Shown here piece after piece: positions 58-32,855 of a stretch of 37,155 bases of DNA. Under the pieces are notes generated by a model that was not told the origin of the DNA, ran no database searches, and worked only from the letters and a program-made list of their open reading frames with translations. The DNA is from Acidimicrobiales bacterium. Lineage in GTDB: Bacteria; Actinomycetota; Acidimicrobiia; Acidimicrobiales; SZUA-35. Position 1 is the stretch's first letter. Each line of letters starts with the position of its first letter. The translations under genes were made by a program, and so were the position numbers. The stretch spans positions 198,460 to 235,614 of the forward strand of contig JAHDCV010000001.1 in assembly GCA_020629695.1 (NCBI GenBank), given 5' to 3'.

Positions 58-1088
58 AGGACGAGGACGCCGAGGTAGGCCACGGACGCGACCAACAGCC
101 AGGACCCCAGACCCAACACCAGCGGACGGCCGCCGAGGGTGCGGAGACGGGCCACACGCACGCCGAGGCCGAGCCCGAACAGGGCGGCAGCGAGCAGGAG
201 CTTCTCGACCGACTTGATGTCGGCGAGCGCCGCATCGCCCAGGACGCCGCTCGACCGGACGACGATGGCTGCGCCGAACAACGCGACGAACAGCGGCACG
301 ACGGGTGCACGAACCGATCCCCCGTCGCTCTCGTCATCGTCGTGTCGGCGTCGCGACAACGCCACGGCGGCCACGAGCGGCGCGAGCAACACGACACGGG
401 TGAGCTTCACCACCGTCGCCGCCTCGAGGGCGGCGTCACCGTCGGTCGCGGCCGTGGCCACCACCTGGGCGACATCGTGGACCGCCGCACCGACGAACGC
501 CCCGAAGGCCTCACCGTCGAGGCCGAACGGCCCGGCGAGCACGGGGAGGACGAGGATCGACAACGAACCGCAGAGCGTCACGAGCGCGACGGCGTAGGCG
601 GTCTCTTCCTCCTCGGCCTCGATGACGCCGTCCATCGCGGCGACGGCCGACGCACCACAGATCGAGTACCCCGTGGCGACCAGGAGGGAGAGGTTCTCAC
701 TCAGGCCGAGGCGGCGCCCCAACCAGCGGGTCCCGAAGAACGTCGCCGTCACGGTCACGATGACGACCCCGAGCCCCGACACCCCGAGTTCGACCACGTC
801 GGCGAAGGCCAAGCGGAATCCGAGCAGGATCACACCACCCCGGAGCAACCGGCGAGTGGCGTACTGCACACCGGGGCCGAACACCGCCGGCAGATCGACG
901 ACGTTGCCGACGGCGACGCCGAGGATGACCGCGGCCACGAGCGGCGACAGGGTCGACGAGACCGATGCCACCACGAAGGACGCGGCGAGACCGGCGCCGA
1001 CGACGGCGAGGCCTGCGGCATCGCGACGCGTCGGGATCACCGCACGCAACGGCGCGGCGATCCGAGCGACCGAGGGGTCCGCGGACAT
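54..1088 (-). CDS. YeiH-family putative sulfate/sulfite exporter
   Basis: Integral membrane protein of 344 residues, matching the UPF0324/YeiH family of putative sulfate exporters. About ten hydrophobic segments are visible. The family motif GYSICGASAVAA lies near residue 140 and HDVAQVVA near residue 205. A charged loop (RRRHDDDES) separates the last third. I chose the ATG at 1088 because an upstream in-frame stretch is arginine-rich, unlike a membrane-protein N terminus, and overlaps the monooxygenase gene. No clear Shine-Dalgarno is visible, so translation may depend on coupling with the gene 20 bases upstream. It is the last gene of a dehydrogenase-monooxygenase-exporter operon. An SsuD-like enzyme releases sulfite, so exporting that toxic product is the natural role; this is inference from context. 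Confidence 0.88.
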   Translation of the reverse strand: MSADPSVARIAAPLRAVIPTRRDAAGLAVVGAGLAASFVVASVSSTLSPLVAAVILGVAVGNVVDLPAVFGPGVQYATRRLLRGGVILLGFRLAFADVVELGVSGLGVVIVTVTATFFGTRWLGRRLGLSENLSLLVATGYSICGASAVAAMDGVIEAEEEETAYAVALVTLCGSLSILVLPVLAGPFGLDGEAFGAFVGAAVHDVAQVVATAATDGDAALEAATVVKLTRVVLLAPLVAAVALSRRRHDDDESDGGSVRAPVVPLFVALFGAAIVVRSSGVLGDAALADIKSVEKLLLAAALFGLGLGVRVARLRTLGGRPLVLGLGSWLLVASVAYLGVLVL

Positions 1089-1108
1089 CGACGAAGGTCG
1101 TTCGGAGC

Positions 1109-2209
1109 TCAGACGACGACGCGGTCGGGTTCGAACTCGAGTCGACCGTGTCGGATCCGCGGCAGGACGTGGCGTGCGAACAGATCGCACTCCGCTGCGT
1201 GGGGATATCCGGAGAGGATGAAGGCGTCGATGCCGGCCGCAGCCAGCTCGCCGATCTTCTCGGCGACCTGGTCGGGGTCACCGACGATGGCGGCACCGGC
1301 GCCCGAACGGGCACGGCCGACGCCGGTCCAGAGATGACGCTCCACGTACCCGTCCTCACCGGCCGACTCGCGCAGCTCGGCCTGGCGGGCCACCCCGGCA
1401 CTCGCGGAGTCGAGCGAACGCCGGCGGATGGCCTCCCCTTCGGCGGCGTCCAGCTTCGACAGCAGCCGGGCCGCGGCGGCGCGCGCTTCGTCCTCGGTCT
1501 CGCGCACGATCACGTGACTCCGCCACCCGTAGCGCAGGGTCCGCCCCTTGGCCGCCGCACGGGCATCCATGTCCGCCTTGACCTCGAGCACCTTCTCGGT
1601 GGTGTCGGGCCACATGAGGAACACGTCGGCGCCGGAGGCGGCGCAGTCGCGCGCCGCCGGTGAGAGGCCACCGAAGTAGAACAGCGGGCTCCGACCCGAC
1701 TCGGTGGCGATCCGTGGCGGATCGATCTCGAGATCGATGAAGTCGCCGTGGAACTCGACGGGCCGGCGGTCGAGCAGCTCCCGCAGGCAGTACATGATCT
1801 CGGTCGAGCGTCGGTATCGGGGCTCGGACGCCAGGCTCTCGCCGGGGAGATCGGACGAGATGATGTTGATCGTCAGCCGTCCCTGGAGCATCTGGTCGAC
1901 GGTGGCCATCTGTCGGGCCAGCTGGGGCACGACCAACTCGCCGCAGCGCACGGCGAGCAGCATCCGGATCTGGTCCGTGAGGGGGGCCATGCCGGCGGCG
2001 AACGTGGTGTTGTCGATGCCGAGCGCGTACCCGGATGGGAGCAGCACGTTGTCGAAGCCGTAGCGATCGGCGGTCAACACGATGTTGCGGCAGTGGTTCC
2101 AGGACGACTGGAGTCGAGTGTCGATCTGACCGAGGAACTCGTAGTCGTCGTCGCAGAGGGCCGAGAACCAGGCCATCTCCACCGGGGTGTCGTTCACGAA
2201 TCCACTCAT
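1109..2209 (-). CDS. SsuD-like LLM-class FMNH2-dependent monooxygenase
   Basis: 366-residue TIM-barrel protein of the luciferase-like monooxygenase family, closest by eye to alkanesulfonate monooxygenase SsuD. It carries SsuD-like landmarks: a glycine-rich GVGRARSGAGAAIVGDP segment and ILSGYPHAAE near the C terminus, plus LYFGGLSPAA in the middle. Family members use reduced FMN and O2 to split the C-S bond of a sulfonate, giving an aldehyde and sulfite. Length is normal for SsuD. The ATG at 2209 overlaps the previous stop by four bases (ATGA) and has GGAGG a few bases upstream, so the start is firm. No flavin reductase gene is present in the window, so reduced FMN must come from elsewhere. 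The exact substrate cannot be read from the sequence. Confidence 0.9.
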   Translation of the reverse strand: MSGFVNDTPVEMAWFSALCDDDYEFLGQIDTRLQSSWNHCRNIVLTADRYGFDNVLLPSGYALGIDNTTFAAGMAPLTDQIRMLLAVRCGELVVPQLARQMATVDQMLQGRLTINIISSDLPGESLASEPRYRRSTEIMYCLRELLDRRPVEFHGDFIDLEIDPPRIATESGRSPLFYFGGLSPAARDCAASGADVFLMWPDTTEKVLEVKADMDARAAAKGRTLRYGWRSHVIVRETEDEARAAAARLLSKLDAAEGEAIRRRSLDSASAGVARQAELRESAGEDGYVERHLWTGVGRARSGAGAAIVGDPDQVAEKIGELAAAGIDAFILSGYPHAAECDLFARHVLPRIRHGRLEFEPDRVVV

Positions 2210-3300
2210 GCCGGGCCTCCTTCGGATCCGAACATCTCGGACAACTCGACCGGTCGGCCCTCGTCGATCGACCGGTGTGCCGCCGCGCCGATCGCAACGG
2301 CCCAGGCGCCGTCGGCGAGGCTGACCTCGACCTCGCGCTCGCCGCGGATCGCGTCGAGGAAGTCGAGGTGTTCGAGGTAGCTGGACCCGTGATGCAACCC
2401 TTCATGGGCGATGCGATCGTCGTGCACGGTCTCGGTCGGCACGCCACCGACCCAGTGCACACCGCGTCGGCCGTGGCGGTACTCCGACGCCGGGAGCAGG
2501 GCCTCGACCTTGCCGGCGTCGCCGACCGCGATGACCTCCTCCTGATGGAGCGTCGCTTCGGCGAACATGCACAGGTCGAGCATCGCCCGGGCACCGGACG
2601 GGTAGTCGACGATCACGTACGCGTTGTCGAGGATGTCGGGGGTGCGACCGTCGTAGACCTCGTCGAGATGGTTGACCGACTGCGCACCGGATGCCATGAC
2701 CCGGGCGGGGCGCTCGTCGAGGATGAGGTTCATGAGGTCGAAGAAGTGGCAGCACTTCTCGACGAGGGTGCCGCCGGTGTTCTCGGTGAAACGGTTCCAG
2801 TCGCCGACCTTGGTCAGGAACGGGAAGCGGTGCTCGCGGATCGCCACCATGTGGGTCCGTCCCACACCACCGGATCGCACGGTCTGGATGAGCTTGGCCA
2901 CCGGCGCCATGTAGCGGTATTCCATGCCCACGGCGACCTTGGCCGATCGCCCCTCCGCCGCCGCGAGCAGGCGTTCGGTGTCGGCCACCGTCGTGCACAG
3001 CGGCTTCTCGATGAGCAGGTGCAGATCGGTGTCGAGCAGCTCGAGCACCTGATCGGCGTGCTGGTAGTTCGGCGACGCGACGACCAGGGCATCGCACACG
3101 CCGGCGTCGACCAGGGCGCGGTGATCCTGGAAGACCTCGACCGGCCCGGCGGCCGCGGCCTGCGCCTGGGCTTGGCTCGCCTCGTGGGGATCGGCGATGG
3201 CGGTGACGATGGCGCCGTCGACGGCGTTGAGGTTCTGGATGTGCTCGACACCCATCATCCCGGCGCCGACGATGCCGTAGCGGACGTCGTTGTCTGACAT
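2206..3300 (-). CDS. Gfo/Idh/MocA-family NAD(P)-dependent oxidoreductase
   Basis: 364-residue two-domain dehydrogenase. The N-terminal Rossmann motif is GIVGAGMMG (residues about 9-17), and the family EKP motif with its likely catalytic Lys99 is LLIEKPLC. A C-terminal substrate-domain segment, VEKCCHFFDL, follows. The family oxidises or reduces sugars, inositols and related polyols with NAD(P). The start is the ATG at 3300. An open frame continues far upstream, but that part overlaps the divergent LysR gene and has no family similarity. It is the first gene of the operon and is coupled to the SsuD-like monooxygenase by an ATGA overlap. A sugar-type dehydrogenase beside a sulfonate monooxygenase suggests a sulfo-sugar or other hydroxylated sulfonate as substrate; that is inference. 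Confidence 0.9.
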   Translation of the reverse strand: MSDNDVRYGIVGAGMMGVEHIQNLNAVDGAIVTAIADPHEASQAQAQAAAAGPVEVFQDHRALVDAGVCDALVVASPNYQHADQVLELLDTDLHLLIEKPLCTTVADTERLLAAAEGRSAKVAVGMEYRYMAPVAKLIQTVRSGGVGRTHMVAIREHRFPFLTKVGDWNRFTENTGGTLVEKCCHFFDLMNLILDERPARVMASGAQSVNHLDEVYDGRTPDILDNAYVIVDYPSGARAMLDLCMFAEATLHQEEVIAVGDAGKVEALLPASEYRHGRRGVHWVGGVPTETVHDDRIAHEGLHHGSSYLEHLDFLDAIRGEREVEVSLADGAWAVAIGAAAHRSIDEGRPVELSEMFGSEGGPA

Positions 3301-3350
3301 GGCTTCCCATCGGAGCACAGGCCGACCTGCCAAGGGAATGCCCCCAAGCT

Positions 3351-3378
3351 TTGACAGGTCATAGGCTCTGCCTATGAC
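3351..3378 (+). promoter_or_regulatory. Probable promoter of the LysR regulator gene
   Basis: A perfect -35 box TTGACA (3351-3356) is followed after 16 bases by TATGAC (3373-3378), four of six matches to TATAAT. The regulator start is 31 bases further on. The inverted repeat at 3356-3380 covers the spacer and the -10, so a bound regulator would block its own promoter. Confidence 0.5.
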
Positions 3379-3380
3379 CT
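3356..3380. promoter_or_regulatory. Inverted repeat, likely LysR-type operator
   Basis: AGGTCATAGG, five bases, then CCTATGACCT: a perfect 10-bp inverted repeat. It contains the T-N11-A core (T3362 to A3374) typical of LysR-type binding sites. It sits between the divergent regulator (start 3409) and the dehydrogenase operon (start 3300), where such regulators usually bind to repress themselves and activate the divergent operon. Confidence 0.7.
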
Positions 3381-3408
3381 CTCGGACCGCGGCACCCTGG
3401 AGGTCGCC

Positions 3409-4302
3409 GTGACGCCGTCGCTGGATCTGGCGAGCGTCGCACTCTTCCTGACCGTGCTGGAGCTCGGTTCGGTGTCGAAGGCCGCGCGACGCCATGACCT
3501 CTCCCAACCGTCGGCGACGGCACGGCTCGCCCGACTCGAGAGCGAGCTCGGCGTGGCGCTGCTCGAACGAGCACCCACGGGAACCGTGCCGACACCGGCC
3601 GGACAGTCGCTCGCCCGAGATGCCCGACGACTCCTCGACGCCGCCGACGACGTGGTCGAGACCAGCCGACAGCTGCGGACCGACGCCGCGGCGTCGGTCC
3701 GCATCGGCTCGGTGGCCGGTCTGGCGCCCGAGCCGCTCGGGGGGTGGATCCGATCCTGGGAGTGGCCTCGATCGGTCACCGTCGATCTGGTCGTCGATCA
3801 CGCTGCGGGGATCGCCGACGCCGTTCGACGCGGCGAGGTGGATCTGGGGTTGGTCGACGGCCCGGCCGAGCCGATCGGACTCCGCTCGGCGTCGATCGCG
3901 ACGGATCGTGTCGTGGCGGTGGTCGGGCCGCGCCATCGCTGGCACGGCCTGGCTCGGCCGGTCGGTGTCGCCCACCTCCTCGCGGAGCGGCTCGTCGTGA
4001 CCGAGCGTGGCGTCGGCACCGGCGACGTGGTCGACCACGTTCTCGGCAGCCGGCTGGACGACACCGACGTCCGGACCGTCCGCGGGATCGACGACGTCCT
4101 CCTCGCCGCGTCGACCTCCGACGAGATCGGGTTCGCCCCGGCCCGGTGCCTCGTCGAGCCGCTCGAGGCGCTCGACCTCGACGTGACCCTCTGGCAGCCG
4201 ATCCGTCTGGTCTGGCGGGGCCGTCGGCCCGAGCGCAACGCGGCCCGCGCACTGGTCGACCACCTCCGGTTCGGGCCGAGCCGTTCGCTCGACCGAACCT
4301 GA
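3409..4302 (+). CDS. LysR-family transcriptional regulator
   Basis: 297-residue regulator. The N-terminal winged helix-turn-helix is clear at residues about 5-62: VALFLTVLELGSVSKAARRH, then LSQPSATARLARLE and TPAGQSL. The rest is the periplasmic-binding-protein-like effector domain. Start is GTG at 3409 with GGAGG five bases upstream; an upstream ATG at 3374 is closed by TGA in the start region and cannot be used. It is divergent from the dehydrogenase-monooxygenase-exporter operon, with a T-N11-A palindrome in between. It probably controls that operon in response to its substrate or an intermediate, and represses itself. The effector is unknown. Confidence 0.92.
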   Translation: MTPSLDLASVALFLTVLELGSVSKAARRHDLSQPSATARLARLESELGVALLERAPTGTVPTPAGQSLARDARRLLDAADDVVETSRQLRTDAAASVRIGSVAGLAPEPLGGWIRSWEWPRSVTVDLVVDHAAGIADAVRRGEVDLGLVDGPAEPIGLRSASIATDRVVAVVGPRHRWHGLARPVGVAHLLAERLVVTERGVGTGDVVDHVLGSRLDDTDVRTVRGIDDVLLAASTSDEIGFAPARCLVEPLEALDLDVTLWQPIRLVWRGRRPERNAARALVDHLRFGPSRSLDRT

Positions 4303-4305
4303 ACG

Positions 4306-5103
4306 TCAGCCGATCGGCACCGCGACGACCACCACGTTGTCCTCGTAGGACCGGACCCGCGAATCGAACGGACCACCGCAGGTGATCAGCACCAGCTGCG
4401 GTGCACCGTCGCGTCGCCACAGGTCGGGCGGCAGTTCGTCCTTGCCGTGGCGGGCGACCGACACCACCTCGAACTGGAGCGTCGAGCCGTCGGCACGGTC
4501 CACCTCGACCACATCACCGACGACGGTGTCCCGGAGCGGGAAGAAGGCCCCCGGCCGGCCGTTGTAGTCGACGTGGGCGGCGACGACGGAGCTTCCGGGT
4601 CCCCCCGGCTCGGGGCCGAATCGATACCACCCGATCTCCGCCTCGGCCGGGACTTCGAGGTCGCCGTCCGGGCGGATGCCGACCTCGGTCACCGCGGCAT
4701 CGATCCCGACGCTGACGACCCGCAGCCCCACCGGCGCGGGGCGGTCGGGCACGACGAGGTCATCGAGCGAGGCGGCCGTCTGGATCGGGACGTCGGGGAC
4801 CGACCATCCTCCCGGATCCACGGCGCCGTCGAGCGCCGGTGGTGCCGATCCGTCGACCGGCTCGCCGTCGGAGACCTCGTCCTGGGCTCGGAGATCGCCG
4901 CCTTCGGACCGACCGACGTCGATGACTCCGGCGGTGCTCCCGCCCCCCGACACCTCGTCGGCGGGGAGGGAGCTGCAACCGGCCGCCAGCAGGGTGGCGG
5001 CCAGAACCGATCGGACCGGTCGCCTTCCCGACCACCACCGCCCCGCTCGGGCAGGGGGAGAGAGCACCCGGAACGGTGCGGCGGTGGACGCCGGGGAGGT
5101 CAT
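4306..5103 (-). CDS. Class F sortase, predicted lipoprotein
   Basis: 265 residues. The C-terminal half is a sortase domain of the class F type: AAHVDYNG with catalytic His177, ITCGGPFD with catalytic Cys242, and the arginine-containing DSRVRSYEDN just after. Sortases cut a sorting motif in an exported protein and join it to another molecule. The N terminus holds LLAAGC, a lipobox with Cys43, after a basic stretch, so this enzyme is probably lipid-anchored rather than held by a transmembrane helix. A low-complexity linker (about 44-115) separates the anchor from the catalytic domain. The Cys at position 43 is late for a lipoprotein, so the true start may lie downstream of 5103. It follows a DUF4397 surface protein by 35 bases, its most likely partner or substrate. 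Confidence 0.88.
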   Translation of the reverse strand: MTSPASTAAPFRVLSPPARAGRWWSGRRPVRSVLAATLLAAGCSSLPADEVSGGGSTAGVIDVGRSEGGDLRAQDEVSDGEPVDGSAPPALDGAVDPGGWSVPDVPIQTAASLDDLVVPDRPAPVGLRVVSVGIDAAVTEVGIRPDGDLEVPAEAEIGWYRFGPEPGGPGSSVVAAHVDYNGRPGAFFPLRDTVVGDVVEVDRADGSTLQFEVVSVARHGKDELPPDLWRRDGAPQLVLITCGGPFDSRVRSYEDNVVVVAVPIG

Positions 5104-5138
5104 GACGGTGCGTTCGCTCGGCGGACGGCGCGTCCGAC

Positions 5139-5978
5139 TCAGCGGCGGACGAACGAGGCGCGAGCGGTCCCGGCGACGACCGCGACACCGAGCACGCCGG
5201 CGGTCACGAGTGCGGGTACCGACGAGGGACCGGCCGGATCGAGCAGACCGCTGGTACCGGCGTTCACCTGCGCCGGGGCGGAATGGAGACCGTCGAAGGA
5301 CTGGGTGATCAGCGTGAACGAACCGCCGGCGAGATCGCCGATGGCGTAGACGACGAGGTTCGTGCCCTCGGCGATCGTGATCGGGGCGTCGACGAGGACC
5401 TCGGTCGTTCCGGCCGCGGCGAGGCCGGTCGGATAGGCGTCCGCCGGCAGCGCCACCACGGCTTCACCACCGTTGGCGAGACCGGTCAAGCCGTCGACGG
5501 CCGCACCCCCGGCGACGATGTCCACGGCCGGGGCCGCGGCGGTGTGGCGCACCGTGACCCTGCCCTCACCCGCGTCGATCGTGTCGAGATCGTTCACGAA
5601 GGCACCGAGGGTCGGGGCACCGTCGGCGTCGAGGTGGGCGACGACGCTGAGGTTCGCGCCGCCGGGCACGGCAGGGGTCACGTCGATCACGGCGTCGTCG
5701 GTCCGGTCCTCGGCACTCGCCGGGGCGTCGTCCGACGCGGCGAAGATCTGGATCCGGTAGTCGGCGGCCGGCAACGACAGCGGCCCGGCGATCGCCTCGG
5801 GCTCGAAGCCCTCGAGGGTCAGGTCCCCGTCGACGTAGACGTCGACGGTCACACCCGGGATGCCGTGGACGACGAAGACGTCCGAGGTGTCCTGGGCCGA
5901 GGCGCCGGGAGCGAAGAGCCCGATGGTGGCGAGGGTGGTGAGCAGGGCCAGCAGGGCCCGGAAGCGGGACGTCCGCAT
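5139..5978 (-). CDS. DUF4397-domain exported surface protein
   Basis: 279 residues. A signal peptide (FRALLALLTTLATIGLF, then GASAQ) precedes a DUF4397-type beta-rich region: VFVVHGIPGVTVDVYVDG, a second half beginning GRVTVRHTAAAPAVDI, and ITIAEGTNLVVYAIGD. The C terminus has a hydrophobic helix ending in FVRR, which looks like a membrane stop and positive tail. No LPXTG motif is visible before this helix; the nearest text is GLLDPAGPSS. Start ATG at 5978 has a strong GGAGG seven bases upstream and excludes a 27-residue extension that lacks signal-peptide features. It lies just upstream of the class F sortase in the same direction, so the two may act together. Function of DUF4397 is not known to me. 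Confidence 0.85.
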   Translation of the reverse strand: MRTSRFRALLALLTTLATIGLFAPGASAQDTSDVFVVHGIPGVTVDVYVDGDLTLEGFEPEAIAGPLSLPAADYRIQIFAASDDAPASAEDRTDDAVIDVTPAVPGGANLSVVAHLDADGAPTLGAFVNDLDTIDAGEGRVTVRHTAAAPAVDIVAGGAAVDGLTGLANGGEAVVALPADAYPTGLAAAGTTEVLVDAPITIAEGTNLVVYAIGDLAGGSFTLITQSFDGLHSAPAQVNAGTSGLLDPAGPSSVPALVTAGVLGVAVVAGTARASFVRR

Positions 5979-6146
5979 GATGTACCTCCGGAATGGGGAT
6001 GGGGTCGTGGGGGATTCGGCGCGGCGGCCCGATCCGGATGCACCTCCGCTCCCGGACACACGGGAGGTTCAGCTCGACGATGGTGCCAACGTCTGGCAGC
6101 GTGGCGGTCGACGCCACAGCGAGACCGCACCGGAGGGGACCGACCC

Positions 6147-7904
6147 ATGCCCGAGACATCGACACCATGGCAGCCGATCGGTGACGGGGCATGGGTGGGC
6201 AGCGACGCCTCCGACCGGTTCCCGACCTACACACGGGGCAACGCCGGCGAGGTCTACCCCGAGGTCTTCACCCCGTTGACCTACTCGATGGCGGGCGAGA
6301 TGGGTGAGCGCTGCATGCGTGCGGCGCTGGGCGACACCGGGCTCCTCACCGAGGCCGAACTCGACGCACCGATCACGACGTCGATCGGCTCGGGCGTCTT
6401 CGGTGGGTACGCCTATCTGAACCTCTCGGTCCAACGCCTCATCGCGGAACGACTGCCGGGCGGCAGTGCCGCCGACGCCGACGCCAACTACCTCGGGGTC
6501 GGCACCGCGATCCCACCGCCGGACCCCGATCTCCCCCGGGACCGTCGGGCCTCGGCGCGCGGCCTGCGGTACCTCTGGCGCACGGTCCGCCTGAAGAACC
6601 TGCCGCCACTCGAGGAGGACCGGGCACGCACCGATGCGTTCCTCGCTGCCCAGGTGGACCCCGCCGAGCTGACCGATGCGGAGTTGCGGGCCGAGGTGAC
6701 GGGGCATCTCGATCTCATCGAGGACCTCTTCCGCCACCACCTGATCATCAGCGGCCAGGCCGGCATCTGTGTGAGCGCCCTCGCGGCGATGCTCGAGCAG
6801 AACCTCGGGTCGCGCGACGCCGTGGGCGAGATCCTCGCCGGCATCGGCGACGTCGACTCCGCTGCGCCGTCGTTCGAGCTCTGGGACCTCGGTCGAACGG
6901 TCGCATCCGATCCGGGCCTCACGGCGATCTTCGACGACCCGGCACCGGATCGTCTGGGGAGACTGCGCACCCACGGCTCGGCAGCGTTCCTCGACGCGTT
7001 CGATGCCTTCCTGGAGCGCCACGGTGCACGCGGTCCGAACGAGTGGGACACCGCCTTCGACACCTGGGGCACCGATCCCGAACTCGCCCTGTCGTTGATC
7101 GATCGCATGCGTCTCACCGACGGCACCCGTGATCCACGAGCCCGTGCGGCCGACCTCGCCACACGGCGGGAGCAGCGCACGAGGGAGGTCCGCGAGTCGC
7201 TGCCGCGCCCGGCGCGAGGCATCTTCGATCGGCTCCTCCACGCCGCACAGGTGACGTCGCGTTCGCGTGAGCGGGCGAAGACCACCGTCGTCCAGGCCAT
7301 TCACGTCGGTCGCGAACGGGGCAAGGAGTTGGACCGCCGCCTCAACGCCCGACGGGGCGGACAGCCAGGGGATCTCTGGTTCATCGTGGAGGAGGAACTC
7401 GACGCCTATCTGACCGATCCTGCGTCCATGGACGGTGTGATCGCGGAACGACGGGCGATGCACGCCCGCCTCGACGAGCGCATCCCACCGTTCACCTTCA
7501 CCGGCGAGATCCCGCCGCTCGACACCTGGGAACGCCGAGACGTCGTCCGGGAACAACTGGGGACCGGCGAATCCCTCGATGGACTCCCGGGGTGCCCCGG
7601 TGTGGCCAGCGGGCGGGCCCGTGTCGTGACCGATCCGGGTGATCCGGGCGCCCTCGGTCCGGGTGACGTGCTCGTGGCCCCGCTCACCGACCCGTCCTGG
7701 ACTCCGCTGTTCCTCGCCGCCTCGGCCGTCGTGGTCGACGTGGGGGCGATCATGAGCCACGCGGTGATCGTCAGCCGCGAGCTCGGCATCCCGTGTGTGG
7801 TCTCGGCCACCGACGCCACCCGCCGGATCCCCGACGGGGCGATGATCGAGGTCGACGGCACCGCGGGCACGATCCGGCTCCTCGATGACGGCACCCCGGC
7901 ATGA
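6147..7904 (+). CDS. PEP-utilizing mobile (phosphohistidine swivel) domain protein
   Basis: 585 residues. The last 100 residues form the phosphohistidine swivel domain of PEP-utilizing enzymes: GCPGVASGRARVV, then GDVLVAPLTDPSWTPLF and MSHAVIVSRELGIPCV with the predicted phospho-His538. The first 480 residues are mostly helical and contain no ATP-grasp nucleotide-binding domain that I can recognise. It therefore resembles the central and C-terminal parts of rifampin phosphotransferase or PEP synthase without their ATP domain. Start ATG at 6147 has GGAGGGG eight bases upstream; the longer open frame upstream overlaps the divergent DUF4397 gene. Next to it is a SixA-like phosphohistidine phosphatase, which may act on the swivel histidine. 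The phosphoryl donor and acceptor are unknown. Confidence 0.82.
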   Translation: MPETSTPWQPIGDGAWVGSDASDRFPTYTRGNAGEVYPEVFTPLTYSMAGEMGERCMRAALGDTGLLTEAELDAPITTSIGSGVFGGYAYLNLSVQRLIAERLPGGSAADADANYLGVGTAIPPPDPDLPRDRRASARGLRYLWRTVRLKNLPPLEEDRARTDAFLAAQVDPAELTDAELRAEVTGHLDLIEDLFRHHLIISGQAGICVSALAAMLEQNLGSRDAVGEILAGIGDVDSAAPSFELWDLGRTVASDPGLTAIFDDPAPDRLGRLRTHGSAAFLDAFDAFLERHGARGPNEWDTAFDTWGTDPELALSLIDRMRLTDGTRDPRARAADLATRREQRTREVRESLPRPARGIFDRLLHAAQVTSRSRERAKTTVVQAIHVGRERGKELDRRLNARRGGQPGDLWFIVEEELDAYLTDPASMDGVIAERRAMHARLDERIPPFTFTGEIPPLDTWERRDVVREQLGTGESLDGLPGCPGVASGRARVVTDPGDPGALGPGDVLVAPLTDPSWTPLFLAASAVVVDVGAIMSHAVIVSRELGIPCVVSATDATRRIPDGAMIEVDGTAGTIRLLDDGTPA

Positions 7905-7960: not shown

Positions 7961-8413
7961 ATGCTGATCCACCTGATCCGCCATGCCCACGCCGGCCAGC
8001 GCGGCCCCGGCGGGCGGGACATCTACCGCCCGCTGTCGGAGCAGGGTGTGGCCGAGGCGGATGCACTCGCCACGATGGTGGACGGCGACGCACCCGTGTT
8101 GTCGAGCCCGGCGACCCGTTGTGTGCAGACGGTCGAACCCCTCGCGGAGCGTCGCGGGGTCGAGGTCCGGGAGCATCACGATCTGTGGGAGGGCAGTCGC
8201 ATGGGCGACGTCATCGCCCTCATCCGGGCCGAAGCGACCGACGGGCTGGTGCTCTGCTCCCACGGCGACGTGATTCCCGAACTCATCGAGACCCTGGCGG
8301 CCGGAGGCACGAAGATCCGCGGCCGGTCCTGCGAGAAGGGCTCCATCTGGACCCTGACGATGGACGGTGACGAGATCACCGAGGCGAGCTACCAGGCTCC
8401 ACCCGACGTCTGA
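7961..8413 (+). CDS. SixA-like histidine phosphatase family protein
   Basis: 150 residues, close to the size of E. coli SixA. The family RHG-type motif is LIRHAHAG with the catalytic phospho-accepting His8; LSSPATRCVQTVEPLA and LCSHGDVIPELI supply the conserved second arginine and second histidine. SixA removes phosphate from histidines of phosphotransfer proteins in the cytoplasm. The start is the ATG at 7961, giving the motif at the very N terminus as usual for the family. It lies 56 bases downstream of a protein with a phosphohistidine swivel domain, a plausible target. It converges with the cytochrome c maturation operon, four bases apart. Confidence 0.88.
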   Translation: MLIHLIRHAHAGQRGPGGRDIYRPLSEQGVAEADALATMVDGDAPVLSSPATRCVQTVEPLAERRGVEVREHHDLWEGSRMGDVIALIRAEATDGLVLCSHGDVIPELIETLAAGGTKIRGRSCEKGSIWTLTMDGDEITEASYQAPPDV

Positions 8414-8417
8414 GACC

Positions 8418-9164
8418 TCAGCTCAACAGTCCACACGACGCCTGGGCGTCGACGCTGGCCACCAGGTCGAGCACGAAGGTCGGCGGATCCAGGTCGAGCA
8501 GTGTCTCGAGTTCGTCGCATGCCCGTGCGGCGTCTCCGCGGCGCGCCGCGATGATCGACCGGAAGGCGTAGGCATCGGGGAACGACGGGTCGGCGTCGAC
8601 CGAGCGGTCGAGCCGCACACTGGCCGCAGCCAGCAACTCGGTCGCCGCGGCGGTCTCCCCGGCATCCACCGCCGCGAACGCGGTGATCGCGACGAACCAC
8701 CCGCTGTAGCTCCAGGCCTCCGCGTTCCGGGGGTCCTCGGCGAGCACCCCGTCCAGGCATTCGATGGCATCGAGATAGGCCGCGCCTTGAGCCAGGCCGA
8801 TGCAGTCGCGGGTCTGGGTCCGGGCGGAGGCGTCGATCGAGCCGGTGATCTGGTCGTTCACGCCACGCTCACCGGTCGAACGAGCGAGCAGGAAGCCGGC
8901 GCCCAGCGCGAACACCGTCGCCAGTCCGAACCACAGCAGACGACGCGAACCGTCGGCGGTCGCGGTGCGACGAACTCGTGGGGTCGAACCGTCGAGTCGG
9001 CGGATGACCTCGGCCGCCCGCCGGGTGTAGTCGTCGTGCAGCGTTCGATGATCGTCGGGTGTGAGATCGCCGGCGGCGAGCTCGACATCGAGGTCGTCGA
9101 GCGACGTGAGCAGGAAGTCCCGCTCCGCCTCCAGAGCAGCCCGACCAGCGTCGACCGGATCCAT
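8418..9164 (-). CDS. CcmI-like TPR membrane protein of cytochrome c maturation
   Basis: 248 residues. The N terminus resembles the CcmI/CycH cytoplasmic region: LTSLDDLDVELAAGDLTPDD and a run of charged residues ending VIRRLDG. One transmembrane helix follows (about 74-93). The rest looks like two or three degenerate TPR helices that would face outside the cell: AYLDAIECLDGVLAEDP, SVRLDRSVDADPSFPDAYAF and ACDELETLLDLDPP. In System I, CcmI-type proteins hold apocytochrome for haem ligation. It is the last gene of the ccm operon and its first base is the last base of ccmH (TGATG). Similarity is weak, so the name rests partly on position. Confidence 0.72.
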   Translation of the reverse strand: MDPVDAGRAALEAERDFLLTSLDDLDVELAAGDLTPDDHRTLHDDYTRRAAEVIRRLDGSTPRVRRTATADGSRRLLWFGLATVFALGAGFLLARSTGERGVNDQITGSIDASARTQTRDCIGLAQGAAYLDAIECLDGVLAEDPRNAEAWSYSGWFVAITAFAAVDAGETAAATELLAAASVRLDRSVDADPSFPDAYAFRSIIAARRGDAARACDELETLLDLDPPTFVLDLVASVDAQASCGLLS

Positions 9165-9628
9165 CAGCGCTCCGTGCCGCGCCGGGCGGCCTCGACCAGA
9201 TCCCGGTCGGCCGAACTCACCGTGGTCGCCTCGACCCGACGTCCCACCACGAACGCCACCCCGACCGCACCGACGACGGCGACCACCACCGGCAAGACCC
9301 AGACGAGGGCGGCGAAGCCCTCACCGGGCGGGTTCAGCAACGACCCGGGCCACGCGGCGAGGATGTCGTCACGGATCTGATCGTCGGAAGCACCGGCCAC
9401 GACCTCGACCTCGATGAACGTGCGGATCGCTTCGGCGACCGAGGCGTTGGAGTCCGCGACCGACTGTCCATCGCAGACCGGGCAGGCGTAGGAGTCGTGG
9501 AGACGCTGGATCCGCTGATCTTCGGTCTCGACGCCGCGATCGACGACCGAGACGGCGAGCAGACCGACGACGGCGACGAACACGCCGGTCCATCGCACGA
9601 GGCGGCTCGTCATCGACCCGCCGCTCAT
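9164..9628 (-). CDS. ccmH: Cytochrome c maturation protein CcmH
   Basis: 154 residues. An N-terminal anchor helix (about 12-26) is followed by the CcmH core ACPVCDGQSVADSNA, with the redox CxxC at Cys49 and Cys52, and a second C-terminal transmembrane helix after PPGEGFAALVWVLP. CcmH reduces the apocytochrome haem-binding cysteines, working with CcmG outside the membrane. The start at 9628 overlaps the CcmG stop as ATGA; an internal ATG at 9613 is an alternative five codons later. Downstream it touches the CcmI-like gene. This is the short single-domain form; the TPR part is separate here. Confidence 0.9.
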   Translation of the reverse strand: MSGGSMTSRLVRWTGVFVAVVGLLAVSVVDRGVETEDQRIQRLHDSYACPVCDGQSVADSNASVAEAIRTFIEVEVVAGASDDQIRDDILAAWPGSLLNPPGEGFAALVWVLPVVVAVVGAVGVAFVVGRRVEATTVSSADRDLVEAARRGTER

Positions 9629-27740: not shown

Positions 27741-28814
27741 ATGACCGCCACCGCCGACCGTGCCGTGATCGCTCCGCCGGCCGAGCCGGACCCGGTCCCG
27801 GCGACTCGGCGGGAGAACCTCGTGGTCGTCGTGTTGACGGTGTGGCTGCTGGCCGGACTCTCGATCGACGGCTACGCCCATGCGAACATCATCGAGCTCG
27901 ACGCCTCCGGCACCGCCTTGACGGAGGACTTCTTCACCCCGTGGCACGCGATCTTCTATGCGGCCTTCACTTCGATCGCGGCCTACATCGGCTGGATGGC
28001 GTGGCGGCGTCGACGCCCGGGGCCACTCATCGGGTGGATCCCCGCGGGCTACGGCCTCGCCGTGGTCGGGCTCGGCGTGTTCGGACTCGGCGGGATCGGT
28101 GACGGCATCTGGCACACGATCTTCGGCGTCGAGGTCGGGATCGACGCGCTCCTCTCCCCCACCCATCTGATGCTGCTCACCGGTGGCGGCATGATCGTCA
28201 CGGCTCCCATCCGATCCCGACTCGCCGAGGGGCTCGACAGCCGACCCTCGAGCTGGGCCCGCGACGGTGCGACGGTCGTGTCGTTGACGGCGGTCACCGC
28301 CGGCGTCGCCTTCTTCCTCACGTTCGGCTGGGGCTTGTCGTTCTGGTGGGCACCCCAGGTTCGGTTCATCGAAGGCGACGGTGCCAGCGAGATCCTGGTG
28401 GCCAGAGCCGTGACGGGCGCGATCATCACGAGCCTGGCGCTCGTCCTGCCGGCGTTGTGGGCTCACCGGCACGGACTGTTGCCCGCCGGCGGCATCACGG
28501 TGATCTGGGTGCTCGCCGTGCTCGCCGAGTCGGCCGCGTTGAGTCAGCCCGACTGGTCGGTCCCACCGGTCCTGATCGGTGCCGTCGTCGCGGAGGTGCT
28601 GCGTCGACGGACGGGCACGCCGGCCGCGCTCGTCGTCGGTGTCGCTGCGATCTGGATCGTCTGGTGGCTCCGGATCGTGATCGAACCGATCCCGATCCGA
28701 TGGCCGGCGGAGATCTGGGGCGGTCACATCGGCTTCACCACGTTGATCACCGCCTGGGTGGTGATCGGGACGACTCGCTTCTCCGGCGGTCAGCCGAGGT
28801 CGGCTTCGAGCTGA
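27741..28814 (+). CDS. Polytopic membrane protein with conserved-looking His/Asp pairs
   Basis: 357 residues, about nine hydrophobic segments; no family recognised. What stands out are polar and histidine residues next to the helices: [11 protein letters not shown] (about 42), [12 protein letters not shown] (about 69), [20 protein letters not shown] (about 117) and LSPTHLMLL (about 138). Such buried His/Asp clusters often bind a metal or haem, but this is only a suggestion. The start is ATG at 27741. It converges on the next lipoprotein gene and overlaps its end by 25 bases. Confidence 0.8.
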
Positions 28815-29560
28815 TCGAGCTGCGCCCGTTCGGCGGCGATCGCCTCGGCGGTGATCACCGAGTCGACGACCTCGAGCACGCCGGCCGTCGTGCGGAGCGC
28901 CTCGATGCTGCCGGGCGGCACGTCGTCGGCTTGCACGAATGTCGGGAGCTGACCGGGTTCGACCGGACCCGAGTCTGTCGGAAGCCGGCCCGAGGCCCGG
29001 AGGGCATCGAGCGCACCGGCCTCGTCGACGAACGCCACGTCGTTTGCTCCCGCGCCCTCGAGGACGCGGATGATCTCGTCGCGCACGTCCTCGCCCGCTC
29101 CCGGGAGCAACCAGACAACGATCGCGCGCGGCTCGGCGAGTCGTGCCTCGGCCGCGTCGAGCTCGGCGCGTCGCTCGGCGATCTGCTCCGCTCCGGGTGG
29201 GCGGGTCACCTGCAGGACCCCGGCGATGCCGACGACCGCGGCTTCGACTCCGTCGACGTCGTCGGTCGCGACCTGGAACTGGGTCGGCAACGCCGACGGA
29301 TCGACGTTGCCGAGCATGGCCGGGTCATCGGCGAACGCCGTCTGGAACGCCGCCAGGCTGGCGGCGGTGTCGAGGTACTGGTGGGTGGCGCCCAGATCGT
29401 CCAGCACCTCCCGCACCTCATCGACCGCAGCCTGGTCGGCGTCGGGCGTGAGCCACACGACGGCATCGACCCGGTCGGGGGCGACGGCCTCGTCACTGCC
29501 CGCGCACGCACCGAGAACCAGCACCGCGGCGAACAGCAGGACGATCGGTGAGGAGCGCAT
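28790..29560 (-). CDS. Lipoprotein with two FtsX-extracellular-like domains
   Basis: 256 residues. Signal peptide with lipobox LGAC (Cys19). Then two repeated units, about 32-118 and 143-235, each with the pattern of the FtsX extracellular domain: a beta strand (AVVWLTPDAD / IVVWLLPGAG), a helix ending in a short strand and D/E-x-A, a long helix, then LPTQFQVATDDVDGVEAA or LPTFVQADDVPPGSIEAL followed by a GV.EV/GVLQV end. There are no transmembrane permease helices. FtsX uses this domain to engage peptidoglycan hydrolases or their regulators. Here the domain is free and lipid-anchored. ATG at 29560 follows CAGACT by six bases. Domain assignment is by pattern, not by search. Confidence 0.7.
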   Translation of the reverse strand: MRSSPIVLLFAAVLVLGACAGSDEAVAPDRVDAVVWLTPDADQAAVDEVREVLDDLGATHQYLDTAASLAAFQTAFADDPAMLGNVDPSALPTQFQVATDDVDGVEAAVVGIAGVLQVTRPPGAEQIAERRAELDAAEARLAEPRAIVVWLLPGAGEDVRDEIIRVLEGAGANDVAFVDEAGALDALRASGRLPTDSGPVEPGQLPTFVQADDVPPGSIEALRTTAGVLEVVDSVITAEAIAAERAQLDQLEADLG

Positions 29561-29600: not shown

Positions 29601-32600
29601 CTACCAGGTGTCGACCATCGGGCGCTTCTTGCCCGTCCGCGGCGGAGGCGGCGGTGCGGCTCGGAGCGCCGTGGTGATCCAGCGACGTGAGTCGGCCGGA
29701 TCGATCACGTCGTCCAGCTCGAAGTAGGTGGCGTAGCTGACGGCCTTGCCCCGCTCGTAGAGGCGGTCGACCATCTTCTGGAACTCCGCCGCCCGCTCGG
29801 CCGGGTCCTCGATGGCCTCCAGTTCGTTGCGGTAGCCGAGCCGAACGAATCCCTCCAGACCCATACCGCCGAATTCACCCGTCGGCCACGAGACCGTGAA
29901 CAGGGGCGCCTTGAAGCTGCCCCCGGCCATCGCCTGGGCGCCGAGTCCGTAGCCCTTGCGGAGCACGATCGTCATCACCGGCGTGTCGAGGCTGGCGGCG
30001 GTGTTGAACAACCGGCCGGCGTGGCGCACGAGGCCGTCAGCCTCGACGTCGGGCCCGACCATGAAACCGGGGGTGTCGCACAGGAACAGCAGCGGCAGAT
30101 CGTGGGCGTCGCAGAGCTGCATGAACCGCGCCGCCTTGTCCGCGCCGTCCGGGTCGATCGCTCCGGCGAGATGGGCCGGATCGTTGGCGATGATCCCGAC
30201 GGGGCGGCCCTCGATCCGTGCGAGCGAGGTGACCATGCCGAGTCCCCACGTCGACCGCAGCTCGAGCACCGAGTCGACGTCGGCGAGGCCGTCGATGACG
30301 GCCCGGACGTCGTAGATCCGGAGTCGGTTCTCGGGGATGAGATGACGGAGGCGGCGCTGGTCGGGTACCTCGTAGTCGGTCACCGGTCCCTGGAAGTACG
30401 ACAGATACCGCTTCGCCGCGTCGACCGCCGCCGCGTCGTCACTGACCGCGAGGTCCACCACACCGTTGCGGAGGTGCACCTCCCTCGGTCCCACCTCGTC
30501 GGGGGTGAACACACCGAGGCCGCCGCCCTCGATCATCGCCGGGCCGCCCATGCCGAGGTTGGCGTCCTCGGTGGCGATCACGACGTCGGCACACCCGGCG
30601 AGCGCCGCATTCCCGGCGAAGCACCGGCCCGAGACGATCGCGATCAACGGCACCAGCCCGGAGAGATCGGCGAAATAGCGGAAGGCGAGGCAGTCGAGTC
30701 CGGCCAGGATCGATGAGTCCGTGTCGCCGGGCCGTCCTCCTCCGCCTTCGGCGAACAGCACCACGGGGAGCCGCAACTGTTCGGCGAGTTCGAACAACCG
30801 GTCCTTCTTGCGGTGGTTGTTGTGTCCCTGGGTGCCGGCCAGCACGGTGTAGTCGTAGGAGACCACGATGCAATCGGTGCGGACCCGGGCCTCGAATCCC
30901 GATCCGTCGGGCAGCGTGACGCCGTTGATCGACCCGATCCCACCGACGAGACCGTCGGCCGGCGTCTTCGTGATCAGTTCCTCGAACGGTCGGCGGGCCC
31001 GTTGCGCCGCGATCACCAAGGGGCCGTACTCCACGAAGGTGTCCGGGTCGACCAGGTCGGCGAGGTTCTCACGTGCCGTGCGGCGCCCCAGACGGTGCCG
31101 CTTGGCAACGGCGTCGGGCCGGGCGGCGTCCTGCCCCAGTTCGTGACGCTCGACGACGTCGGCCAGGTCCGGGCGGATGTGGGCCGGATCGAGCTCGATC
31201 ACCTCGGCGACCTCCCCGCCGGTCGCTTCGTCGGCCGTCTCCAGCCGAGCCAGCAGGTCGCCGGGTACGACGGTGTCGCCCGGTGCGACCTCCCAACGCA
31301 CGACTCGAACGGCCCGGTCGGCGCGCAGCTCGTGCTCCATCTTCATCGCCTCGAGCACGGCGAGCGTCGCACCTGCCGGATGGACCGAGCCGGCCTCGGC
31401 GTCGGTGGCGACCACGGTGCCCTGCATCGACGCCACCAGGTCCGCACCGTCGGGATGTGGAGCCCAGCCGACGACATCGACGGGCTCCTCGTCGGGTGCG
31501 AGATCGATGAGCACCTCGTCCAGCAGGCGGGTCGACCAGTTGCCGCCAGCCACATCGGGTTCGGCCAGCACGTCGATGAGCAGGGGCGCGATCGACACCG
31601 GCGCGATCTCGGTCTCCCGGAGCGCGGCGACGAGGCGTCGACGAGCGGGTTCCCATGCAGGGTCCCGGGTCGTGACGATGACCTTGCCGACGAGCGGATC
31701 GAACCCGCCGGCGGCGTCCGAGATCGGCGCGGCATCCACCCGGACGCCCGGGCCGCTGGGCCACACCGCCGACATCGGCGGTCTCGGGTCGGGCAGCAGC
31801 ACACCGTCGAGCCCGAGCCGTTCGGTCGTGATCCGAGCCTGCACCGACCGCCCGACGGGGGCGTCGGGGTCGGGAAGATCCAGATCGGCGAGCGCCGCAC
31901 CATCGGCCAGCGCGAGCTGGCACTCGACGAGATCGACACCATGGATCTCCTCGGTGACGGTGTGTTCCACCTGGAGTCGGGGATTGACCTCGCAGAAGAC
32001 CAGCGCCTCGGGCTCCGACGGCCGATCGGCATCGAGCAGGAACTCGACGGTCGCCACACCCCGGAGCCCGGCGGCGCGCCCGATCGAGGTGGCCGCCTCG
32101 ACGAGGCGACGACGCACGACCGGATCGAGCTCGAGCGCCGGCGCGGTCTCGACGACCTTCTGCCGGCGACGCTGCAGACTGCACTCCCGCTCCCCCAGAT
32201 GTGCGACGTCGGTCCCGTCACCGAGGATCTGGACCTCCAGGTGCCTGGCGCGGCTCACGAGCCGTTCCACGAACACCCGGTCGTCGCCGAAGCCCGAGGC
32301 CGCCTCGGACCGGCATCGGTCGATCGCGCCGGCGAGTTCGCCCGCCGATTCGACGATCCGTTGACCTCGACCACCTCCACCGGCGACGGCCTTCACGATC
32401 ACGGGGTAGCCCACCTCTTCGGCGAAGGCCATCGCCCCGTCCAGATCGATCGATGCGTCGGTGCCCTCGACCACCGGTGCACCCGCGACGACGGCGAGAG
32501 CCCGTGCGGCGACCTTGTCGCCCAGGAGACGGAGCATCGCCGCGTCGGGGCCGACCCAGACGAGGCCGGCGTCGGTGATCGCGGACGCGGCCTCGGCCGA

Positions 32601-32855
32601 CTCGGCCAGGAAGCCGTAGCCCGGGTGGACCGCCATCGCCCCGACACGGTCGGCGGCGTCGATGACGGCATCGACGTCGAGAAACGCCGACGGACCGTTT
32701 CCGTCGAGCAGGATCAACTCGTCGACGAAGCGCCCGTGCCCGTCGTCCCCGGGGATGGCGAGCGCCGCGACCCGCATCCCCAGCCGGCGGGCGGTGCGTG
32801 CGATCCGCACGGCGATCTCTCCACGGTTCGCGATGAGCAGAGTGGGTCGTGGCAC
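29601..32855 (-). CDS. Single-chain acyl-CoA carboxylase (BC-BCCP-CT fusion)
   Basis: 1084 residues. Biotin carboxylase occupies the first 450 or so: IANRGEIAVRIARTARRLGM, AVAGGGGRGQRIV, ERECSLQRRRQKVVETAPA and NPRLQVEHTVTEEIHGVDL. The biotinyl domain follows with LAVLEAMKMEHEL, biotin on Lys505. A carboxyltransferase domain fills 570-1084, with the crotonase-like GHNNHRKKDRLFELAEQ, GGGRPGDTDSS and GMGGPAMIEGGGLG segments. Order BC-BCCP-CT in one chain is as in the long-chain acyl-CoA carboxylase described from mycobacteria, which makes malonyl- or 2-substituted malonyl-CoA products. GTG at 32855 is preceded by AGAGGA. It lies beside a carboxylate-type symporter, which fits acyl-CoA metabolism; substrate specificity is not readable by eye. 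Confidence 0.92.
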   Translation of the reverse strand: MPRPTLLIANRGEIAVRIARTARRLGMRVAALAIPGDDGHGRFVDELILLDGNGPSAFLDVDAVIDAADRVGAMAVHPGYGFLAESAEAASAITDAGLVWVGPDAAMLRLLGDKVAARALAVVAGAPVVEGTDASIDLDGAMAFAEEVGYPVIVKAVAGGGGRGQRIVESAGELAGAIDRCRSEAASGFGDDRVFVERLVSRARHLEVQILGDGTDVAHLGERECSLQRRRQKVVETAPALELDPVVRRRLVEAATSIGRAAGLRGVATVEFLLDADRPSEPEALVFCEVNPRLQVEHTVTEEIHGVDLVECQLALADGAALADLDLPDPDAPVGRSVQARITTERLGLDGVLLPDPRPPMSAVWPSGPGVRVDAAPISDAAGGFDPLVGKVIVTTRDPAWEPARRRLVAALRETEIAPVSIAPLLIDVLAEPDVAGGNWSTRLLDEVLIDLAPDEEPVDVVGWAPHPDGADLVASMQGTVVATDAEAGSVHPAGATLAVLEAMKMEHELRADRAVRVVRWEVAPGDTVVPGDLLARLETADEATGGEVAEVIELDPAHIRPDLADVVERHELGQDAARPDAVAKRHRLGRRTARENLADLVDPDTFVEYGPLVIAAQRARRPFEELITKTPADGLVGGIGSINGVTLPDGSGFEARVRTDCIVVSYDYTVLAGTQGHNNHRKKDRLFELAEQLRLPVVLFAEGGGGRPGDTDSSILAGLDCLAFRYFADLSGLVPLIAIVSGRCFAGNAALAGCADVVIATEDANLGMGGPAMIEGGGLGVFTPDEVGPREVHLRNGVVDLAVSDDAAAVDAAKRYLSYFQGPVTDYEVPDQRRLRHLIPENRLRIYDVRAVIDGLADVDSVLELRSTWGLGMVTSLARIEGRPVGIIANDPAHLAGAIDPDGADKAARFMQLCDAHDLPLLFLCDTPGFMVGPDVEADGLVRHAGRLFNTAASLDTPVMTIVLRKGYGLGAQAMAGGSFKAPLFTVSWPTGEFGGMGLEGFVRLGYRNELEAIEDPAERAAEFQKMVDRLYERGKAVSYATYFELDDVIDPADSRRWITTALRAAPPPPPRTGKKRPMVDTW

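Follow-up and report, generated by a model that had tools for sequence, protein, structure and literature searches.

The outside (extracytoplasmic) domain of FtsX, the ECD, is known as part of the division machine that switches cell-wall hydrolases. In the FtsX of Mtb, residues F61, F110, F113 and F122 are described as the cluster that grips RipC (PMC10694151), and for pneumococcal FtsX the lower lobe of the domain is described as binding the coiled coil of PcsB (PMC6355983). The window analyzed here, a stretch of 37,155 nucleotides from an Acidimicrobiales bacterium (assembly GCA_020629695.1, contig JAHDCV010000001.1), contains on its minus strand a gene (28790..29560; 256 aa, ATG start, matching the whole ORF exactly) for a predicted lipoprotein with two FtsX-ECD units. 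This protein resembles the FtsX ECD (PF18075; 4n8n, 6tpi, 6mk7) in that its unit 1 exceeds the Pfam cut-off, both units are predicted to have the same fold, and unit 1 keeps the hydrophobic residues of the lower lobe. It differs in having no transmembrane (TM) helices, no ABC3 permease part and no adjoining FtsE, in carrying two units in tandem behind a predicted lipid anchor, and in the degenerate lower lobe of unit 2. With FtsEX-RipC, FtsEX-EnvC and FtsEX-PcsB it shares the outside domain and possibly a coiled-coil partner, whereas it is without ATPase coupling and is not located beside ftsE or ftsX; unlike in FtsEX-RipC, no RipC-like protein is present among the NlpC/P60 matches of the genome (n = 1).

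Gene, predicted lipid anchor and the two outside units

The N-terminus of the protein, MRSSPIVLLFAAVLVLGAC, is compatible by eye with a signal peptide and the lipobox LGAC. The predicted signal peptide and lipobox cover aa 1-19 (29504..29560, minus strand), with Cys19 as the lipidation site; VLGAC at aa 15-19 corresponds to VLAGC (lipobox LAGC) in the ortholog, which is 71% identical and is encoded in the sister genome G001 (contig JAHDBV010000047.1, an Acidimicrobiales MAG). A 19-residue hydropathy scan found no hydrophobic segment beyond the signal peptide, and Pfam returned only FtsX_ECD up to E 10, with no permease family. These observations agree with an earlier note on this DNA, which had described a lipid-anchored protein with no permease, the anchor being a prediction from the lipobox. 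Because the permease domain and a neighboring ATPase gene were both looked for and were absent, the protein is an FtsX_ECD-domain protein and not an FtsX. That the gene is real is shown by dN/dS values under 1 for all of its segments (single ortholog pair, window gene against G001) and by a gene order and two junction lengths that are the same in the sister genome. A misread strand or frame was ruled out, as the coding composition and the selection pattern lie in the minus-strand frame.

Unit 1 (aa 30-121; 29198..29473, minus strand) is identified by Pfam FtsX_ECD, by a family HMM and by its predicted fold. The Pfam match (PF18075, aa 34-117) scored 24.5 bits, barely above the cut-off of 23.5, and the ortholog scored 40.6 bits. 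Unit 1 is followed by a helix (aa 122-143; 29132..29197, minus strand; 124-142 in the model) that is repeated after unit 2 (aa 144-235; 28856..29131, minus strand) as the C-terminal helix (aa 236-256; 28793..28855, minus strand; 238-255 in the model). No Pfam match to unit 2 was obtained up to E 10. The family HMM, for which 22 FtsX ECDs were taken from the bacterial family to which the window genome belongs, gave 54.5 bits for unit 1, 7.6 for unit 2 and 10.1 for unit 2 of the ortholog, against best scores of 6.3 and 4.9 among 1000 shuffles of units 1 and 2 (938 and 844 of which, respectively, returned a score). The two units matched each other with 35.9 bits (phmmer; best of 1000 shuffles, 11.8) and in HHalign with an E-value of 3.5e-11 over 106 columns, extending over most of the helix that recurs behind both units. 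Unit 2 is clearly a copy of unit 1 that has since diverged, and its homology to FtsX_ECD follows from this duplication together with a family HMM score above those of the shuffles. The possibility that unit 2 is unrelated sequence was ruled out by the match to unit 1, the family HMM and the predicted fold. The earlier note had proposed two fused FtsX-extracellular-like domains, to be given up if a profile search found no FtsX similarity in either half; such similarity was found, and the two units stand, unit 1 by Pfam and the family HMM and unit 2 by duplication, family HMM and fold, but Pfam misses unit 2.

In searches with alignment A2 both units scored highly as well, but A2 includes both units and is therefore not an independent test. 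The window protein alone had no match among PDB sequences, and the ten best PDB sequences found with the ECD profile were all FtsX. In NCBIfam the best match was FtsX_actino, whose 14.2 bits are far below the cut-off of 250, and a whole-genome search with PF18075 failed to pick up the window protein. In a tree of ECD units, units 1 and 2 grouped together (85/95, drawn open), with unit 2 on a long branch; 24 of the 30 inner branches of this poorly resolved tree are open, and its bootstrap had not settled.

An AlphaFold2 model built from only 2 sequences had a mean pLDDT of 77 and a pTM of 0.50, with low confidence in the signal region and a mean pLDDT of 65 at aa 191-200. The order of strands (E) and helices (H) is E33-37, H43-55, E59-63, H65-75, H80-84, E93-98, H102-109, E115-119 and H124-142 for unit 1, and is nearly repeated in unit 2 (E145-151, H157-169, E173-178, H180-190, E208-214, H216-223, E228-233 and H238-255), which in the model is without the short second helix of the lower lobe. 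The structure prediction suggested by the earlier note agrees with it, as both units matched solved FtsX ECDs: VIA-align gave Z 9.9 and an rmsd of 2.6 over 89 residues for aa 29-120 with 4n8n (Mtb FtsX ECD), and Z 10.3 and an rmsd of 2.4 over 90 residues for aa 145-236 with 6tpi (the periplasmic domain of E. coli FtsX). An FtsX ECD-like fold is thus predicted for unit 2. FtsX occupied 10 of the 12 top rows. The other two were the ferredoxin-like domain of DAHP synthase, with Z 10.0 on unit 1 and 11.4 on unit 2, equal to or higher than the FtsX scores. Ferredoxin-like folds are common. The best Foldseek E-value was just 2.1e-3 (8ymc, FtsX). Because the DAHP synthase domain scores equally well or better, the fold alone is insufficient for FtsX ancestry; the family assignment is carried by the sequence evidence, and the predicted fold supports it.

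The lower lobe and a candidate hook function

In unit 1 the lower lobe (aa 64-92; 29285..29371, minus strand) contains F72, F76, M82 and L91. In a hand reading of the alignments, residues F110, F113 and F122 of Mtb FtsX align to F76, M82 and L91 in unit 1, to Y, I and L in the FtsX of the same organism, and to S (or a gap, as the alignments differ), D and L in unit 2, and there was no placeable counterpart of F61 in unit 1. By these alignments, the hydrophobic pattern with which FtsX grips its hydrolase is kept in unit 1 and mostly lost in unit 2. The dN/dS values of the one ortholog pair were 0.113 for the lower lobe of unit 1 against 0.275 for the corresponding part of unit 2, 0.185 and 0.379 for the whole units 1 and 2, and 0.108, 0.302 and 0.411 for the linker helix, the last helix and the signal, respectively. 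The lobe of unit 1 thus looks tightly constrained and unit 2 looser, in one pair only, as no more than two members of the close family are known. Since unit 2 has lost most of the lower-lobe hydrophobic residues, a symmetric clamp with two hooks is unlikely, and the mode of the FtsX dimer, with two hooks round one partner, cannot be copied.

Because unit 1 keeps its hydrophobic lower lobe, it would most likely bind a coiled-coil envelope protein. We tentatively prefer, with well under even confidence, a reading of the protein as an FtsX-type hook that is lipid-anchored, is without the membrane and ATPase parts, and holds or titrates a coiled-coil envelope partner. In this mechanism the signal peptide would be cleaved, Cys19 would be lipidated and the protein would be positioned on the outer face of the membrane, where the lower lobe of unit 1 may bind the kind of coiled-coil envelope protein that the organism's own FtsX binds. 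A hook without ATP-driven activation would hold or titrate its partner, acting as a decoy or scaffold, and unit 2, a duplicate without the lobe, would probably serve as a spacer or an asymmetric lid. The regulator role proposed by the earlier note is accordingly putative, and plausible.

As for the partner, RipC was rejected as an obvious candidate, and the suggestion of the earlier note in this respect is a poor fit. The only NlpC/P60 match in the genome (a 97% complete draft), L066, carries a fused lytic-transglycosylase-like part and belongs to a flagellar-looking cluster with a FliI-like gene upstream (all by eye). Coiled-coil M23 proteins are the EnvC type of FtsX partner. The genome contains five M23 matches, and in three of the four that were read (all but L071), namely L067, L068 and L069, coiled-coil-like N-terminal stretches were recognized by eye. 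A coiled-coil M23 hydrolase or activator would therefore be the most plausible partner. The ftsX gene of this genome exceeds the Pfam cut-off and is located on another contig (C51), preceded by an FtsE-like gene (by eye). No division gene adjoins the window gene among the neighbors read, whereas for such a decoy of a hydrolase regulator one would expect some linkage to division. The neighbors, which are genes for a carboxylase, a symporter and, by eye, two-component proteins, and the non-FtsX protein whose fold scores equal or exceed those of FtsX likewise count against the hook.

Outside domains without a permease in related genomes

An alignment search with the ECD in the 39 genomes of the family returned 55 matches in 37 genomes, which were classified by frame into 36 rows of FtsX and 19 rows flagged as free. 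Two of the latter (G025:C382 and G035:C337), in which ftsX is cut by contig ends, were dropped by hand, and the remaining 17 rows correspond to 13 permease-less genes in 11 of the 39 genomes. These are five genes for two-ECD lipoproteins spread over four genomes (one each in G000, G001 and G032, and two near-identical copies on short contigs of G031), six genes adjoining a sigma-factor gene (G003, G014, G017, G022, G028 and G034), and two genes for TM-ECD-TM proteins, both in G015. One of the 13 genes, L054, was included by the local HMM and is below the Pfam FtsX_ECD cut-off. The sigma-linked proteins of the family are single-pass by hydropathy, except those of G003 (masked bases) and G022 (weak second hydrophobic segment). 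Eight genes were added from outside the family; they were chosen as non-FtsX-looking and not for sigma neighbors. The Pfam FtsX_ECD model was passed by 18 of the 19 other free-ECD proteins scanned, with L054 failing (the 19 leave aside the window protein and the second of the G031 copies; for the first gene of L056 the scan covered the part from within its ECD on).

A small sigma-70 gene adjoins 12 of the 21 permease-less ECD genes fetched. The ECD gene is directly downstream of the sigma gene in ten cases, namely L034 (7674-9661, minus strand), L037 (6830-9039, plus), L038 (5119-6967, plus), L039 (6602-9003, minus), L040 (4756-5798, plus), L041 (about 7993-9379, minus), L050 (3455-4656, minus), L060 (3456-4960, minus), L061 (2228-3582, plus) and the second gene of L056, and directly upstream in two, L058 (2778-4251, minus) and the first gene of L056 (L056 at about 4090-6544, plus). 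Part of this count is circular, because seven of the counted loci supplied the seed of the sigma HMM; Pfam sigma-70 region 4 was nevertheless found in all eight sigma proteins scanned, including those of the non-seed loci L050, L056 and L058, and region 2 exceeded the cut-off in five of the eight. From their size (158-204 aa) and regions 2 and 4 these proteins would be ECF-type sigma factors, and the Pfam Sigma70_ECF model matched only that of L060 among them. The same HMM gave no sigma match at 38 ftsX loci (177 kb; most about 3 kb). It also gave none in the window or at the ortholog locus, and none at five lipoprotein loci, of which two are one and the same contig. No anti-sigma domain was found by Pfam in the sigma-linked ECD proteins. 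The start and stop of the sigma and ECD genes often overlap, and several of the ECD proteins have a common short cytosolic motif like L..RA..I.V (by eye). The sigma-linked proteins are possibly sigma partners with an FtsX-type sensor. They resemble the window protein in their exported FtsX_ECD domain without a permease, but differ in their TM anchor, their cytosolic N-terminal part (masked bases in L038) and the sigma gene, none of which the window protein has.

The sigma adjacency indicates that the domain is reused in signaling-type architectures, and it favors the main rival of the hook, which we hold nearly equal to it and likewise consider possible at about one chance in three. According to this rival, the FtsX-type domain is a general extracytoplasmic module for binding proteins or peptides, and the lipoprotein is a sensor or ligand-presenting part unlinked to hydrolases. 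The contrast between 12 of 21 permease-less genes and none of 38 ftsX loci beside a small sigma gene, the six of 13 within the fully classified family, and the absence of linkage of the window gene to division genes all fit a general module. On the other hand, the lipoproteins themselves have no sigma neighbors, the window genome has no other permease-less ECD match (E <= 0.001, draft genome), and the hydrolase-gripping pattern is kept in unit 1.

Because relatives reuse it, several of them beside a sigma gene, the outside part of FtsX may be a reusable module that is not confined to division. A wider proposal, which we consider possible but less likely than not, is that the FtsX hook is a portable exported protein-binding module that was lifted from FtsEX several times in Acidimicrobiales-type actinobacteria, giving tandem lipid-anchored decoys as well as the outside sensors of membrane partners of ECF-type sigma factors, through which the state of a hydrolase could become transcription. 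The domain itself is already known; no description of permease-less FtsX ECDs, of the tandem lipoprotein form or of ECDs in sigma partners was found among the titles and abstract openings searched in the open-licence PMC literature. The hook occurs without its machine both here, where it is doubled and lipid-anchored, and in relatives, where sigma factors accompany it; whether it binds a partner by itself can thus be tested directly, and the sigma-paired ECDs suggest that hydrolase state might be passed straight on to gene expression. Should binding fail, the domain would be a more general envelope-binding fold, and the annotation 'cell division protein FtsX' by the ECD domain can mislead.

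Other forms were also observed. Short TM-ECD-TM proteins were found at L055 (3481-4083, minus strand; true ftsX at 1775-2749, minus) and L062 (1998-2648, minus); they resemble the first half of FtsX without the remaining permease, and one lies about 0.7 kb from a true ftsX. A sample of 198 genomes of the order (up to 25 candidates scored per genome) contained at least 13 with more than one match, and the additional match is not always permease-less. One of these second matches, L057 of G244 (1685-4858, plus strand), is apart from the main FtsX match and looks like a second FtsX-like permease because TM helices follow its ECD. In a sample of the phylum (up to 17 candidates scored per genome), G619 and G623 were the genomes outside the class with two matches. 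In one order with large actinobacterial genomes (the order of G544), each of the 60 genomes had exactly one PF18075 match; permease-less ECDs are therefore not general at that sensitivity, at which PF18075 missed the window protein too.

Genomic neighbors and distribution of the lipoprotein

The gene upstream of the lipoprotein gene on the same strand encodes a fused biotin carboxylase, biotin carrier and carboxyltransferase (acyl-CoA carboxylase by Pfam; 29601..32855, minus strand) and is a possible operon partner. It ends 40 nt before the lipoprotein gene, and this gap is identical in G001. The next gene upstream encodes a sodium:solute symporter (Pfam), followed by two-component genes for a LytTR-type regulator and a kinase (by eye). 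On the other side, a convergent gene (27741-28814, plus strand) encodes a membrane protein of 357 aa with no Pfam or NCBIfam match; it overlaps the 3' end of the lipoprotein gene by 25 nt (28790-28814), and both the neighbor and the overlap are retained in the sister genome. The conserved 40-nt placement after the carboxylase gene, together with the ACT and other ferredoxin-like domains among the fold matches, would suit a lipoprotein with an ACT-like ferredoxin fold that binds a small ligand (for example, an amino acid or acyl-CoA product) and serves the adjoining carboxylase and symporter genes. This is improbable, as no other Pfam family was matched up to E 10, FtsX accounts for the ten best PDB sequences of the ECD profile and 10 of the 12 top Z rows, and the carboxylase is expected to be cytosolic while the lipoprotein is extracytoplasmic.

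Full-length relatives of the window protein were found in two of the 39 family genomes. A scan of GTDB contigs with two peptide patterns gave no copy besides that of the sister genome, and no other full-length match was found among 395 sampled genomes of the class (up to six candidates scored per genome; G001 was outside the sample), in which the five matching genomes were the window genome and four with partial matches in frames of FtsX length. The protein thus looks genus-level. Such a narrow range, with no further ortholog in the class sample and unit 2 on a long branch, could also be expected of a minor structural or near-neutral lineage-specific lipoprotein left over from a duplicated FtsX fragment and having no specific partner, but there is little to recommend this, given that in the one ortholog pair all segments are under purifying selection, that the gene is intact in both genomes and that two other genera have similar two-ECD lipoproteins.

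The latter, from two further genera of the family, are L036 (7697-8608, minus strand) and the G031 protein, whose gene is present in a single draft genome on two short contigs that are nearly identical to each other (L051 and L052; L051 about 493-1270, minus strand). Like the window protein they have a lipobox signal (by eye), two FtsX_ECD stretches each and no permease, but they have other neighbors, and L036 keeps the lower-lobe aromatic residues in both units. A common origin of the tandem with that of the window protein is not supported by the ECD-unit tree. The lipoprotein gene of G031 adjoins thioredoxin-like and acyl-CoA-dehydrogenase-like genes (by eye).
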